This document shows, piece by piece, positions 34,316 to 43,252 of a DNA stretch of 64,000 nucleotides. The position numbers and the translations under genes are program-made. Location of the stretch: positions 1 to 64,000 of the forward strand of contig RFFQ01000173.1 of NCBI GenBank assembly GCA_003697105.1. Reading direction: 5' to 3'. The notes below the pieces were generated by a model. The model had not been told where the DNA came from and ran no database searches. It was given only the letters and a program-made list of their open reading frames with translations. Source of the DNA: Gemmatimonadota bacterium (GTDB lineage Bacteria; 4572-55; J002). Every line of letters starts with the position of its first letter. Position 1 is the first letter of the stretch.

Positions 34316-34918
34316 TCAGTTGGTTTGAGCGGCATAAAACAGGTAGATCAAGCTAGCAGTGATGCCGGTTACCATCACCGGTTCCCAGATGGATGAGGCG
34401 GGTGGCAGTGCCGGATTTTGTTCGGTTTCCGTCGTGAGTTGTAGGAACGCTTGGGGCACCTGATCCGTAGTTTGTGCCCGGACACGACCGGAGGCAACCA
34501 ATTGCTGCTGGTGGTGAAGTTGGTAGGTCAATTGGGTGATACATTCGCGTTCTACCTGAACTTTCCGCCAGATTCCGCGCCGGTACGTGCGGGGGTATCG
34601 CACCCCTAATGCATCAATTTGCAAATATAACCGGTATATCTCCGGCTGGGTCGAGTCTGGGCGAACGGTTACTAACGAAATGGGCTTGGACTGCAACTCT
34701 TGACCCCATAGAGCGAGTAGAAAGAAGGCTTGATTTTTGTCATTTATCACTTCGGTATAAAGTTGGGATATGGGTACACCGGCAATTTCCGCCCAGAGGT
34801 TCCGGAGAGCTTGGCGTGTGGTCTGTTCCAACTGATCCGTGTTGGAGGGATAATCCAAACCGTGGAGGGCAGAGGCTGGGATGAGCATGGCAAACAAGAC
34901 TGCTATCAATCTGTGCAT
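34316..34918 (-). CDS. Small secreted/membrane protein, function unknown
   Basis: A 200-residue protein with an N-terminal signal peptide (HRLIAVLFAMLIPASALHG). The middle is a mixed alpha/beta region, and a C-terminal hydrophobic segment (VMVTGITASLIYLFYA) is likely a membrane helix. I recognise no family. The start ATG 34918 lies four bases after the stop of the tandem-DnaA gene, so the two are very probably co-transcribed; an earlier in-frame start at 34969 would overlap that gene more deeply. A cytosolic ATPase next to a secreted partner is notable. Confidence 0.68.
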   Translation of the reverse strand: MHRLIAVLFAMLIPASALHGLDYPSNTDQLEQTTRQALRNLWAEIAGVPISQLYTEVINDKNQAFFLLALWGQELQSKPISLVTVRPDSTQPEIYRLYLQIDALGVRYPRTYRRGIWRKVQVERECITQLTYQLHHQQQLVASGRVRAQTTDQVPQAFLQLTTETEQNPALPPASSIWEPVMVTGITASLIYLFYAAQTN

Positions 34919-34922
34919 GGGG

Positions 34923-37016
34923 TTACAATTCCATATCCAGACGGGTGGGGGGTTTATTCCAATCGACAATCATGCGGGAGAGAAGGTCTCGGACTAACTC
35001 ATTTGAGGGTTGTGGTGTCGTTGTACTGGCGGGTCGTTTTGCCGTTGAAGGTGCGGAAACGCTTGGCGTGGAATTTTCTCCTAATACGGAACGAAGTGTA
35101 TCCAGCGTAATTGTGGTTTCTCCGTTGACAGAACACTGTGCTGTCAGGCGGTTTAAAATTCCTCGTAATTCCCGGATACTATGTTGGTATTGGTGGGTAA
35201 TATAGTCGAGAGCGCGGGGGTCTATTGTTAAGTTTAAGGCTTCAATATAATTTTTGACAATAGTTCGCCGTACTTCTGCTTTTGGCGATTTGAGTTCGAT
35301 CACCAACCCCCCTTCAAAGCGGGAGCGAATCCGGTGCTCTACTTCTGTCAATAGATTCGGGGGACGATCACCACTAATGACGATCTGTTTGTTCACGGAA
35401 TATAAGGTATTAAAGCAGTGAAAAAACTCTTCTTGGGTGCGCTCTTTGCCGCTCAAACGCTGAATATCGTCCATCAACAGCACATCAATTTCATTGTAAT
35501 TCATCCGAAAGTCATCGGTGCGGCGCTCTTCAATTGCTTTGATTAAATGGCGGGCAAATTCATCCACGGTGATGTAGAGCACATTCAGATGCGCGTGATG
35601 ATCGACAATGTAATTCCCGATAGCGTGGAGCAGGTGGGTTTTTCCCAAGCCGACGCCGCCATGAATATAAAGCGGGTTGTATTGCTTTGCTGGCGCCTGA
35701 CTGACCGCTTTGGCAATGCTCATCAGCATTTTATTTTCATCCCCGGCGATGTAATTTTCAAACCGGAAATCCAAGATCAAGGTTTGGCGATAGGTTTGGC
35801 GGCGTTCAATGCGGGTTTCGAGCCGTTTCAGGTCGGCGGCAATCTGGTCGATGGCTTCCGGGTTGAACAGATTTTGTTCGATTTTGCGGGCGTCTGCTTC
35901 CAGCCCTCGCACATCCAAACATGCCAATTGCTTTTGGAATTCCGCTAATCGTTTGGCATCGCGGGTGTATTCCCGAAAAACTCGTTCGATCTCTTCCACA
36001 TTACCATCAATCACTTGCTGCAACCGGACGACATTAAAGCCTTTCATCTCCCACACATAGAGTTTTTGCCGGTAAAATTCGCGGAGTTCCTCTTCTTCTT
36101 GCCGTTTTGAGATGGTCTGGCTGACATCATGTTCGACTTCTTCGATAAATTGCCCGAATTCTTCCGGTAAACTAGATTTGGCGGGGGATTTGGCGAGGGA
36201 TTGAGGCTCGGGTTGGGCTACTGGTGGGGGAGTGACCTCCACCGCTGGGGAGGGTGGGGGGGTTGTGTCATAGCGTTTCTGGCGTTCGGCTAGGAGTCGT
36301 TGAACCCATTCCACGGTTACCTGCGCATCATTCAGGCTGGAAATCGCTAGGACTTGATTCAAGAAGCCCTCTAATTCCCGGATGTTGGAGGTAATTCCCT
36401 GTGCGATCTCGTAGATCAACTCCTCCGGCAGGGTGATGTTACGCAGGGCGGCTTTATTGTTAAGGATGGCGACTCGTGTTTCAAAATCGGGTAGTTGGAT
36501 ATCGGCTACCAGCCCTCCTTCAAAACGGGAGCGTAACCGTTCATCCAAATCCATACTTTTCGGCGGACGATCACTGGTGAAGACGATCTGTTTTTGCAAG
36601 GTATAAAGTGTATCGAATGTATGCAGTAACTCCGTTTGGGAGCGGTCTTTATCGGCGAGGAATTGAATATCGTCGATGAGCAGGCAATCCACATTGCGGT
36701 ATTTGTTGTGGAAATCGTCAATGCTTTTGCGCCGTTCAAGGGCATCTAGCAGTTCATTCGCGAACTGTTCCGCGGTGGTATAGATGATTTGAATCTCAGG
36801 ATTCGTTTGAAGGAGTTCATTACCGATGGCGCTGATGAGGTGGGTTTTGCCCAAGCCCACACCACTATAGATAAAAAGCGGATTATGCATAAAACCGGGC
36901 ATATCCGCGACCCCTTTAGCGGCGGCATAAGCAAAGCGATTACTATTCCCAACAATAAAGTGATCAAAGGTAAAGTTGGGATTGAGGAAGAGTTGAAGTT
37001 GGTTACCTGCGCTCAT
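34923..37016 (-). CDS. Tandem DnaA-type AAA+ protein lacking the DNA-binding domain
   Basis: A 697-residue protein with two DnaA-like domain III modules. Module 1 (about residues 10-245) opens like DnaA domain III (LNPNFTFDHFIVGNSNRFAYAA). It has Walker A GVGLGKTH (52-59), Walker B LLIDDIQFL, sensor TSDRPP and an RLRSRFEGGL arginine-finger block. Module 2 (about 413-645) repeats all of these: GVGLGKTH (454-461), LLMDDIQRL, SGDRPP and RIRSRFEGGL. Both have the IRELxGxLN lid. Between them lie a Pro-rich linker (252-285) and a charged helical, probably coiled-coil segment (285-410). The C-terminus has a Ser/Thr/Pro tail and no helix-turn-helix domain IV, so it cannot be the replication initiator itself. 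It lies 24 bases after the TPR gene in a long operon with bactofilins. The role is unknown. Confidence 0.85.
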   Translation of the reverse strand: MSAGNQLQLFLNPNFTFDHFIVGNSNRFAYAAAKGVADMPGFMHNPLFIYSGVGLGKTHLISAIGNELLQTNPEIQIIYTTAEQFANELLDALERRKSIDDFHNKYRNVDCLLIDDIQFLADKDRSQTELLHTFDTLYTLQKQIVFTSDRPPKSMDLDERLRSRFEGGLVADIQLPDFETRVAILNNKAALRNITLPEELIYEIAQGITSNIRELEGFLNQVLAISSLNDAQVTVEWVQRLLAERQKRYDTTPPPSPAVEVTPPPVAQPEPQSLAKSPAKSSLPEEFGQFIEEVEHDVSQTISKRQEEEELREFYRQKLYVWEMKGFNVVRLQQVIDGNVEEIERVFREYTRDAKRLAEFQKQLACLDVRGLEADARKIEQNLFNPEAIDQIAADLKRLETRIERRQTYRQTLILDFRFENYIAGDENKMLMSIAKAVSQAPAKQYNPLYIHGGVGLGKTHLLHAIGNYIVDHHAHLNVLYITVDEFARHLIKAIEERRTDDFRMNYNEIDVLLMDDIQRLSGKERTQEEFFHCFNTLYSVNKQIVISGDRPPNLLTEVEHRIRSRFEGGLVIELKSPKAEVRRTIVKNYIEALNLTIDPRALDYITHQYQHSIRELRGILNRLTAQCSVNGETTITLDTLRSVLGENSTPSVSAPSTAKRPASTTTPQPSNELVRDLLSRMIVDWNKPPTRLDMEL

Positions 37017-37040: not shown

Positions 37041-39557
37041 TTAGGACACATCAGAAATTTCATCGGGTTGATGCGGTAGGGAAACATGCCCACCTCTGGA
37101 AAAGATACGCTCCCATTCCAACGCCACCTCCAGACTTTGCCGGGCACTTTCGCGTAGATTTTCATCTTCCGTGGAGGAGATAATCTGCTCCCACTGTTTG
37201 ATGGCGCCTTTGTAAATCCGGCGGTAATTACACAGACCTAACTGATAATGGGCGTAGTGATAGGTTGGTTTGATGCGGATGACCGTCCGGTAGGTGTGTG
37301 CGGCTTCGTTATACTTTTGCTGTTGAAAATAGATGTCCCCTAGGGTTGTATAGACATAGGCATCATTTGCGTTGGTTTTGAGGGCTTCCTGACAGATATT
37401 TTCCGCGGTTTGCAGATCATCTTTACGAACATAAATTTTAGCTAAGCGGCGGAACGCCAATGAATTTTCCGGGTTGAGTTCGATAGCTTGCCGGTAGTAG
37501 TGGATTGCGTCATCGGGGCGTTCGGCATATTCAGAAAGAATGCCACAAATCAGTTGGGCTTCAAAATTCGTAGGTTCTAGTTCGATCACCCGTTTGTACG
37601 CCTCCAGTGCTTTATCGTACAGCCCTTTTTTCTTATACACATTCCCTTTGGAGCGGTATATTTCGCTGCGGTCGGGTGCTAACTGGTTTGCTTTGCCCAA
37701 GTACAACAAAGCTTCGTCATACATGCCTTTGCGGGAGTATGCCCGGCCAAGCAGATATTGCGCCTCCGTATGTTGGGGGTCGAGTTCCACGGCAACCCGG
37801 AGTTTGATCAGGGCTTCGTCCAGAGCACCAGCGTCGAAGTGCTCTTTTGCTTCTTGATAATACCGGTGAACTTCGGTGCGTTTAATGCGTTCGGCGCGAT
37901 CAATACCTTGTTCGTGTTCTCCGGCTAAACGTTCTTGCAGCCGTTTGGCGGCGTCTTCGGGGCGGGCAACCGGAACGGTCAGGACTTCAAATTTGGGAGT
38001 GGGGAAGTCGATCATCAATTTGAAAAAGTACCCCGCATATTCGCTGCGTAAACTCCGTGCATCCTCAAATTGAACAATAGCTTCTTCGTACCGTCCCTGA
38101 TGGACAAGTGCAAAGCCATAATTAAATTTTGCTTCGGCACTTTGCGCATTTACATGAACGGCATCACTCAAAAACGGGATTGCCTGATCGTAATTGCCCA
38201 ATTCCAAATGCACAATTCCCAAATTTGCCAACACCCGATAATTACTGGGTTCCCGCTGGCGGCACTCCTCCAAAATTTTCAGTGCTTCTTGATATTCATT
38301 TTGCCAACGATACACTAAAGCAAGATTGATTTGAGGCTCGATGTCTTTCGCGTCAAGCTGAATCGCTTGGCGAAATGCCTCGATTGCTTGGTCGTACTGA
38401 CCTTGATTGACCAGTGCGACGCCCCGATTATTGTAACTGGGGGCATACTGTGGATTGACCTTCAATGATTTATCGTACCATACCAGTGCTTTTTGATATT
38501 CACCGGAGAGGTGATGCCCGACGCCGATATCGTTAAACATTCGGGCTGAATAAGGCTCTACCACTAGTGCTTTTTGGTATTCACGCACCGCATCGTTGGC
38601 GTTACCTTTCAGCAACAGAATTTCTGCCACATTGCGGTATATCAATGCCGCATCCGGATCGATACCCAACGCCCGTTGAAATTCACCCAGCGCTTCATCA
38701 AAAAAGCCTTTATTGCGATAGGCGATCCCCATGTGATAATGATTCATAAAATTCTGGGCGGGGGATTGAGTGTGTGTTGTCCGCACGGAATCGGTATCGC
38801 TCAACTCGACATCACTATCGTCGATTTCAAGGTTTGTTTCCGCTTTGGCGTAATTGGGGTCTAGTTTGATTGCCGTGTTGTACGCTTCCTGTGCTTCGGT
38901 GAACATGCCTTTATCGCCGTAAACAAAACTCAGGTGGAAGTAGGCATCGGCAAGTTCGGGATCGATTTCGATCACCTTTTGGAATTGAGCGATGGCTTCT
39001 TCATCCATGCCCATGTTGTAATAGGCTTGTCCCAGTTTATCATGGATGATGGCGATACCGGGTTTAAGTTCCGCCGCAAATAGATATTCTTGAATTGCAC
39101 GTTCACAATCTCCAATGCCCATCAAGCCGTTACCGAGGTGATAATGGGCAAGGTAATTCATCCGGTCCATCTCAACCACGGTGGTATATTGTTCGATGGC
39201 ATCTTGAAAATTACCGGCGGTTTCATAAACGTTGCCCAACTTGTAGTATGCCTGCACATCTTTCGGGTTCATCTGAATCCGCTGTTTGTATTTATTGATG
39301 AGTTCATCGTATTTGCCGGTTTTCCGGTACACGGCTTGTAAATTGCGGCGGGCAAGTGAAAAACGGGGGTCTAGGGAGAGGGCTTTGCGAAATTGTTGAA
39401 TCGCCTCTTCATAAAAGCCTTTTTGGTAAAAGACGACTCCCAAATTGTTATGGGCGCCTGCATCTTTCGGATCCAGGCGATCCGAATAGCTTTGCAGGAC
39501 TTTTATATCTCCATTCCGTGTCGTCTGGTGTTGGGTATCGGAAGCCATAGTTTCCAT
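37041..39557 (-). CDS. Giant TPR-repeat protein
   Basis: An 838-residue, apparently cytosolic protein made almost wholly of tetratricopeptide repeats, with well over fifteen 34-residue units. Examples are NNLGVVFYQKGFYEEAIQQF near the N-terminus and LGRAYSRKGMYDEALLYLGKA later. One acidic break lies near residue 245 (DDSDVELSDTDS) and another helical break around 540-600. Such arrays are protein-binding scaffolds. The frame is open far upstream into gatA, but ATG 39557 (after AAAAGG) begins METMASD just before the first repeat; ATG 39548 is an alternative. It lies 19 bases after gatA and 24 before the tandem-DnaA gene. Confidence 0.87.
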   Translation of the reverse strand: METMASDTQHQTTRNGDIKVLQSYSDRLDPKDAGAHNNLGVVFYQKGFYEEAIQQFRKALSLDPRFSLARRNLQAVYRKTGKYDELINKYKQRIQMNPKDVQAYYKLGNVYETAGNFQDAIEQYTTVVEMDRMNYLAHYHLGNGLMGIGDCERAIQEYLFAAELKPGIAIIHDKLGQAYYNMGMDEEAIAQFQKVIEIDPELADAYFHLSFVYGDKGMFTEAQEAYNTAIKLDPNYAKAETNLEIDDSDVELSDTDSVRTTHTQSPAQNFMNHYHMGIAYRNKGFFDEALGEFQRALGIDPDAALIYRNVAEILLLKGNANDAVREYQKALVVEPYSARMFNDIGVGHHLSGEYQKALVWYDKSLKVNPQYAPSYNNRGVALVNQGQYDQAIEAFRQAIQLDAKDIEPQINLALVYRWQNEYQEALKILEECRQREPSNYRVLANLGIVHLELGNYDQAIPFLSDAVHVNAQSAEAKFNYGFALVHQGRYEEAIVQFEDARSLRSEYAGYFFKLMIDFPTPKFEVLTVPVARPEDAAKRLQERLAGEHEQGIDRAERIKRTEVHRYYQEAKEHFDAGALDEALIKLRVAVELDPQHTEAQYLLGRAYSRKGMYDEALLYLGKANQLAPDRSEIYRSKGNVYKKKGLYDKALEAYKRVIELEPTNFEAQLICGILSEYAERPDDAIHYYRQAIELNPENSLAFRRLAKIYVRKDDLQTAENICQEALKTNANDAYVYTTLGDIYFQQQKYNEAAHTYRTVIRIKPTYHYAHYQLGLCNYRRIYKGAIKQWEQIISSTEDENLRESARQSLEVALEWERIFSRGGHVSLPHQPDEISDVS

Positions 39558-42349: not shown

Positions 42350-42778
42350 CTATTTCCGTTTTCGGGAGGTACTTTGTCCCCCGCTGGATGGCGTGTTTCC
42401 CGCGCTACTTCCTCCCCCGGAGGTGCCCTTGGGTTGATCACTTAAATAGGCGGGAACTTCTCGTTCTTTCATGTTCACTTTACCCCGAATAATGGCTTCC
42501 GGATCGACTTCTAAGCCGCCGGTGGGGCATTCAATGTCCCCTTCTACCCGACCACTGGCATGAATATGGACTTTTTCTTTGGCAAAAATATTACCAACCA
42601 CTTTGCCTTCGACCGAAACAATGGTGCCTTCTACTTCGGCGGTCACCCGTCCATTTCTGCCGATGTGAAATTTGCCGTTGACCTTAATTTTACCTTCAAA
42701 TTCACCTTCAATGGTGATGTCCTCATCGCTGGTCATCTCCCCGGTAACTTTAATTCCTTTGCTGATTAATGATTGCAC
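42350..42778 (-). CDS. Bactofilin (second copy of the pair)
   Basis: A 142-residue cytoskeletal polymer-forming protein. The central beta-helix (about residues 5-105) shows the bactofilin rhythm of short repeats: KVTGEMTSDEDITIEGEFEGKI, GTIVSVEGKVVGNI and ASGRVEGDIECP. Disordered tails flank it, with a Gly/Ser-rich C-terminus. Bactofilins assemble nucleotide-free filaments that position wall or polarity factors. The start is GTG 42778 behind GGAGG. It lies 42 bases after the other bactofilin gene. Confidence 0.93.
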   Translation of the reverse strand: MQSLISKGIKVTGEMTSDEDITIEGEFEGKIKVNGKFHIGRNGRVTAEVEGTIVSVEGKVVGNIFAKEKVHIHASGRVEGDIECPTGGLEVDPEAIIRGKVNMKEREVPAYLSDQPKGTSGGGSSAGNTPSSGGQSTSRKRK

Positions 42779-42820: not shown

Positions 42821-43252
42821 CTATTTGGATTCCGCTGATGGTGATGGTTTAGGGGACCGTTTTCGATCCGGCATTTCACAACTTCCCTTAAAAATAGCCC
42901 CATCTTCCACCACGAGACGCGGATTATCAATATTACCCGTCACGTGGGCCGTAGGGCGGAGATGTAGTTTATCTTGTGTGACAATGCTTCCATTCACCCG
43001 TCCGGAGACGATCATATTGCGAGCCCGGATGGATTCGCTCTCAAGGTTACCGGACTCCTCAATGGTGAGGTCTTCATTTAAGCTGATTTTACCATTGACT
43101 TTACCCATAATTCGTACCGAATCCTGACCGGAAATATCGCCTTTAATCACCACCCGCGAGCCGATGTAGGTATCTTGTTTGCGGTCTAACTTCGGGATAT
43201 TTGCCTGTTGTAAACGCTGTTCTTCTTTGTTTTTGTTACCAAACCAACCCAT
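42821..43252 (-). CDS. Bactofilin (first copy of the pair)
   Basis: A 143-residue bactofilin with a longer charged N-terminal tail (GWFGNKNKEEQRLQQ) before the beta-helix (about 27-122): VVIKGDISGQDSVRIMGKVNGKI, RNMIVSGRVNGSI and LRPTAHVTGNI. It ends in a basic, Ser/Pro-rich tail. The tails differ strongly from those of the adjacent copy, so the two probably have distinct membrane or partner contacts. It is the first gene of the long minus-strand operon and follows a consensus promoter. Confidence 0.92.
   Translation of the reverse strand: MGWFGNKNKEEQRLQQANIPKLDRKQDTYIGSRVVIKGDISGQDSVRIMGKVNGKISLNEDLTIEESGNLESESIRARNMIVSGRVNGSIVTQDKLHLRPTAHVTGNIDNPRLVVEDGAIFKGSCEMPDRKRSPKPSPSAESK

Follow-up and report, generated by a model that had tools for sequence, protein, structure and literature searches.

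A DnaA-type protein family with one or two AAA+ modules, associated with chemosensory–MglA gene clusters

To our knowledge, DnaA-type AAA+ modules are known only from replication initiation and its control. In published work on surface motility, MglA is linked to Frz chemosensory signalling, and some mglA genes have PATAN genes nearby (PMC4316618); the TPR protein SgmX provides a route from MglA-GTP to type IV pili (PMC7519303); and the pilus motor PilB is bound by PATAN domains of response regulators (PMC10519157). As far as searched, these three papers make no mention of a DnaA-type protein, no paper pairing WOR-3 with MglA was found in the literature searched, and DUF4388 appeared there in a single paper. 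A protein with two DnaA-type modules (P0001) is encoded in the 64,000-nucleotide stretch of DNA analyzed here (the window), and no description of its family was found in the openly accessible literature searched, in agreement with the earlier note on this DNA, whose author knew of no such system. The most likely role of P0001 is in directing surface movement, not in replicating DNA.

Architecture of the two-module protein

The gene for P0001 lies at the position given in the earlier note, which stated no strand; the minus strand is supplied here (Table 1). The Pfam family Bac_DnaA (PF00308) matches the protein twice (408.5 bits in total, versus 58.8 bits for IstB_IS21), and the NCBIfam DnaC, DnaI and IstB models give scores far below their cut-offs. 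The AlphaFold2 model of the full chain has a mean pLDDT of 82.3 and a pTM of 0.49, with confident individual parts and an unreliable relative placement of the modules. Just downstream of the gene is an ORF (34316-34918, minus strand) with a signal-peptide-like start and without a Pfam match, and about 5 kb upstream of the gene is a pair of bactofilin genes (42350-42778 and 42821-43252), which encode polymer-forming cytoskeletal proteins.

Table 1. Features of P0001 and its gene, and locations of candidate pathway genes in the window genome
Feature	Position	Strand	Details
Two-module DnaA-type AAA+ gene (P0001)	34923..37016	minus	697-aa product; ATG as start codon; uninterrupted frame
AAA+ module 1	36297..36989	minus	residues 10-240; Walker A K57, Walker B D115-D116, arginine finger R164, sensor 2 R213
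Proline-rich disordered spacer	36159..36266	minus	residues 251-286; pLDDT <50; disorder in the model spans 251-292
Central helical domain	35787..36158	minus	residues 287-410, ~125 aa; K-YVWEMKGF ... LFNP
AAA+ module 2	35067..35780	minus	residues 413-650; Walker A K459, Walker B D516-D517, arginine finger R566, sensor 2 R615
C-terminal peptide IVDWNKPPTRLDMEL	34926..34970	minus	residues 683-697; counterpart of DWP..DR(L/V)IEE(L/F) in relatives
Large TPR gene (P0005)	37041..39557	minus	start codon uncertain; TPR by Pfam
cheW, response regulator, cheA, cheC	contig C7
ExeA-like ATPase and cheW	contig C22
cheR-cheD-cheB	contig C172		mglA ~6 kb further
DUF4388-TPR gene	contig C103
mglA-DUF4388	contig C119

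Walker A is GVGLGKTH in both modules. Walker B (LLIDD in module 1, LLMDD in module 2), sensor 1 (SDRPP, GDRPP), the arginine-finger box (RLRSRFEGG, RIRSRFEGG) and sensor 2 (NIRELEG, SIRELRG) are likewise kept in each, and the earlier description of two complete DnaA-type modules therefore holds. Module 1 matches domain III of Bacillus subtilis DnaA (8bv3) with a TM(target) of 0.95 and 52% identity (Foldseek), and the other solved structures nearest to it are likewise of DnaA. Domain I of DnaA is absent, as the first AAA+ module begins at residue 10 and leaves no space for it. Domain IV (PF08299) is absent from P0001, from its tail and from the neighboring genes, and its sole match in the genome is a normal DnaA of 464 aa and usual layout encoded on contig C63. 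This single match bears out the claimed lack of a DNA-binding domain and rules out a domain IV hidden in the tail or in a frameshifted neighbor. The same C63 gene is the separate dnaA that the earlier note had left to be looked for, and it excludes a genome devoid of a normal dnaA.

Between the modules, the disordered spacer precedes a central helical domain, which was modelled alone (AlphaFold2, 25 sequences) with a pLDDT of 94.9 and a pTM of 0.77. Among 13 divergent double proteins, the mean pairwise identity is 37% for this domain and 22% and 21% for the modules, and the domain carries the motifs K-Y-W-x-MKGF and LFDP; it is the best conserved part and the hallmark of the family. Searches with the domain gave no credible family match in Pfam, no PDB fold match at E<=0.001, and only weak unrelated PDB sequence matches (E 0.04 or worse). 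Because the central piece folds in the model and is conserved, a plain linker is ruled out: the 125-residue charged helical linker proposed earlier is indeed a helical joining piece, but one that forms an ordered, conserved domain with a spacer before it.

The C-terminal tail of most family members is disordered and variable, yet ends in a short acidic-hydrophobic peptide, such that the earlier view of the C-terminus as a disordered tail is correct for most of its length and not for its end. P0001 ends in DWNKPPTRLDMEL, and other members end in DWPASGDRVIEDL, ENWPWVEDRLMEEF, KWPFLKERIFED, EWINEHDRLYVEFE or GELIEDNY; Trp686 is invariant across six aligned relatives. Because the W..DRLxEE-type peptide is found on one-module and two-module members alike, it is probably a docking motif.

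Family members and their gene neighborhoods

A second two-module protein encoded in the window genome (contig C64) is 43% identical to P0001 over residues 10-665 and has all motifs intact in both modules; its gene is preceded by a 241-aa ORF without a Pfam match and, two genes upstream, by a DUF4388 gene. An orthologue of P0001 is present in G001, a genome of the same class as the window genome and the one further member of its phylum in the genome set searched. This paralogue, the G001 orthologue and many independent MAGs rule out an assembly artefact or chance duplication, and the occurrence of independent homologues with the same architecture in many genomes indicates that the architecture did not arise by chance.

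Used as the query, the central domain was detected in few of 386 diverse genomes and, in a 150-genome sample of the phylum to which G062 and G333 belong, in 39. A scan of a named genome collection, for which the query consisted of four closer linker rows and contained no motility gene, found 31 loci, mostly in MAGs labelled by their depositors as WOR-3, Stahlbacteria, TA06 and Cloacimonadota. The central domain joins two DnaA modules in G333 and G062, and follows one DnaA module in G130 and G267.

Several proteins with other arrangements were also observed. Those of G115 (L061:7662-9968) and G252 (L062:6665-9010) consist of a STAS-like N-terminus (assigned by eye), the central helical domain, a DnaA-type module and an acidic tail, and no mgl/che cluster occurs within the stretch read around their genes. 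A 2132-aa protein of G013 (L040:7958-14356, minus strand), a genome that also has mglA-like genes, has an N-terminus that resembles a primase-type zinc finger (by eye), followed by an extended array of TPRs and, at the C-terminus, a DnaA-type AAA+ module. In G025, a 1746-aa protein (L039:3512-8752, minus strand) contains a very long coiled coil flanked at each end by a DnaA-like AAA+ region, with a possible third P-loop-like region at the C-terminal end.

Single-module trees group first modules with first modules and second modules with second modules across phyla, long-branch rows excepted. In AU tests, a constraint holding the second modules together is not rejected (p 0.94), nor is one holding both module sets together and apart from canonical DnaA (p 0.95, with long branches present). 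Because the module trees sort in this way, the duplication, together with the joining helical domain and the lack of domain IV, probably arose once and early. The one-module proteins cluster with the first modules, which suggests, with moderate support, that they derive from loss of the second module. The arginine finger and sensor 2 have been lost from the second module of WOR-3-type members, and Walker A has been lost from the first module in five relatives; double ATPase activity would therefore be dispensable in parts of the family. Walker A and the arginine finger are kept in both modules of G062 and G500, and all motifs in both modules of the C64 paralogue; the intact double set is therefore not peculiar to the window.

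Among the loci with enough flank, read with simple ORF calls outside the window, an mglA or Roadblock gene is directly upstream of the DnaA-type gene in 25 of 27, and a DUF4388 (DUF4388-TPR) gene is next downstream in 28 of 29; cheR, cheD and cheB are present in 23/25, 23/25 and 22/24 loci, respectively. DUF4388 is presumably the Pfam counterpart of PATAN. The usual order is mglA, sometimes Roadblock, the DnaA-type gene, DUF4388-TPR, cheR, cheD, cheB and TPR, and genes for an ExeA-like ATPase and CheW are also present in some loci. The cluster of G333, a genome from another phylum, begins with cheA-cheC-TPR-DUF4388-Roadblock genes-mglA and continues after the double DnaA gene with DUF4388/TPR-cheR-cheD-cheB (cheC and some of the Roadblock genes were assigned by eye). 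The clusters of G130 and G267 have the same gene set with a one-module version of the DnaA-type gene, and that of G001 contains cheA, an ExeA-like ATPase gene, cheW, cheC, TPR, DUF4388 and the double DnaA gene. In G267, Pfam served to check the identities of CheR, CheD, Roadblock, DUF4388 and the TPR proteins; MglA gives weak Pfam small-GTPase matches and is named from a signature read by eye (YYGPGRCGKT ... LATEKDRTLFFD). Homologues of P0001 are thus components of a conserved neighborhood with mglA, Roadblock, DUF4388/TPR and cheR/D/B, and the placement of the family in a chemosensory–MglA pathway is well supported; the neighborhood strongly indicates a shared pathway, not binding.

In the window genome, the cluster parts are scattered over contigs (Table 1). 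Within the window, neither mglA nor a che gene adjoins the P0001 gene, and the sole adjacent cluster partner is the TPR gene P0005, which lies upstream on the same strand after a gap of 24 bp; the two genes are probably operon partners. When P0005 was compared with the ORFs of the retrieved loci, the cluster TPR genes ranked highest as full-length matches (G001, 398 bits; G130, 395; G267, 329; G333, 304), well above other TPR proteins. Judged by these matches, P0005 is the orthologue of the large TPR gene of the mgl/che clusters, and therefore one cluster partner remains beside P0001. The genome is also richly equipped for polarity signalling, with six MglA-like GTPase genes (contigs C54, C119, C172, C59, C67 and C147) and some ten DUF4388 genes. 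A PilT-family ATPase is encoded in all eight genomes tested and flagellar FlhA in one of the eight. Given the known biology of MglA, SgmX, Frz and PATAN, the output of the pathway is likely to be type IV pili or gliding.

Proposed role and alternative explanations

The preferred reading, to which a probability of roughly 0.6 is assigned, is that the P0001 family acts as a nucleotide-switched scaffold in a chemosensory–MglA pathway that controls the polarity of surface motility. A DnaA-derived ATPase would have left replication and joined the polarity system. P0001 is predicted to bind ATP and, in the ATP-bound form, to assemble through arginine-finger interfaces of the DnaA type, both inside one chain and from chain to chain; partners would dock on the helical domain and on the W..DRLxEE peptide that the assembly displays. 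Candidate docking partners are MglA, Roadblock, DUF4388 or TPR proteins, each of which, taken singly, is less probable than the scaffold role itself. Hydrolysis of ATP would dismantle or reset the assembly. The scaffold may thereby link the Che pathway to MglA and to a pole-localized motility machine, probably type IV pili, with the outcome that the machine is controlled in space under Che input. The suggestion of a self-assembling scaffold or positioning factor in the earlier note agrees with neighborhoods that contain mglA, Roadblock, DUF4388, TPR and che genes. A more tentative proposal, favored somewhat less than its converse, is that an ancestor shared by several lineages duplicated the DnaA engine and co-opted it as an ATP-gated polymerizing scaffold that conveys the chemosensory signal to MglA, a DnaA-type spiral serving cell polarity in place of DNA melting.

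The main rival is an Hda-like (RIDA) regulator of DnaA or a dominant-negative decoy, the modules of which would enter the DnaA oligomer and either trigger hydrolysis or block assembly. Consistent with this, the DnaA-type interface is kept in both modules, a basic residue (KDRSQ, KERTQ) occupies what we take to be the position of Escherichia coli Arg245, and the score of the NCBIfam Hda model, summed over the two modules, is 193.9 (cut-off 194.8). In addition, residues 6-10 of P0001 (QLQLF) fit the sliding-clamp-binding pentapeptide, with a shuffle probability of 0.4%. However, QLQLF occurs in 0 of 35 other family members scanned, which rules out the clamp motif as a family feature, most relatives are too diverged for entry into a DnaA oligomer, and the clusters found contain signalling genes. 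An Hda-like role is therefore unlikely, and the earlier suggestion of a DnaA decoy or regulator finds no positive support across the family, in which no feature of replication regulation is conserved.

Unlikely to the same degree is a two-ring remodeller of the p97/ClpB style that dismantles a motility or chemoreceptor complex. The tandem arrangement of AAA+ modules in a single chain would suit such an enzyme, and p97-type double-ring ATPases rank after DnaA in Foldseek, but these matches have a TM of ~0.26 and an rmsd >20, and thus reflect separate AAA+ folds only. DnaA-clade modules form open spirals, and it is to this clade, not to the pore-loop unfoldases, that the modules of P0001 belong; the existence of one-module family members also argues against a two-ring machine.

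A regulator that binds ssDNA or DNA non-specifically, forming a DnaA-like filament for transcription control or for nucleoid anchoring of the motility system, is slightly less probable still. Module 2 of intact members (KERTQEE) retains some of the positions with which initiators contact DNA, but P0001 has no dsDNA-binding domain, and the modules have diverged in WOR-3 relatives, in which the central helical domain persists. The idea of a relic, i.e., a duplicated piece of dnaA without a role, could appeal to the motif decay in some relatives but is very improbable, given the intact frame and catalytic residues of P0001, the two copies in the window genome, and an architecture and gene order shared by distant genomes. 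An origin in phage or in anti-phage defence was also considered and rejected, with only weak generic AAA+ or TPR matches obtained.

If the scaffold reading is true, an initiator ATPase has been reused for cell polarity. The family would be a concrete, previously unknown component of the MglA pathways of WOR-3, Stahlbacteria and related phyla, in which polarity control is apparently unstudied, and the central helical domain provides a specific marker for finding further such clusters.

Comparison with known systems

P0001 resembles DnaA domain III in that its modules are 40-52% identical to solved structures and have motifs in common with them. It differs from DnaA in having two modules per chain and a central helical domain, in lacking domain IV, and in being encoded alongside a true DnaA in the same genome. 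Hda is likewise a DnaA-type AAA+ protein without domain IV, and the clamp-like QLQLF, present in P0001 alone, is a possible further likeness; however, Hda has one module in ~230 aa whereas P0001 has two in 697 aa, the clamp motif is unconserved in the P0001 family, and the family is encoded in a signalling-gene cluster.

The PATAN regulators of pilus motors in Synechocystis, PixG and PilG, for which no DnaA-type AAA+ component was found described, share with the present clusters DUF4388 partners (which we equate with PATAN) beside chemotaxis-like genes. The Frz–MglA/MglB–SgmX system of Myxococcus xanthus, although no DnaA-type ATPase was found described for it, has in common with the P0001 clusters the chemosensory genes, the MglA GTPase, Roadblock, a TPR protein and, as the likely output, type IV pili.
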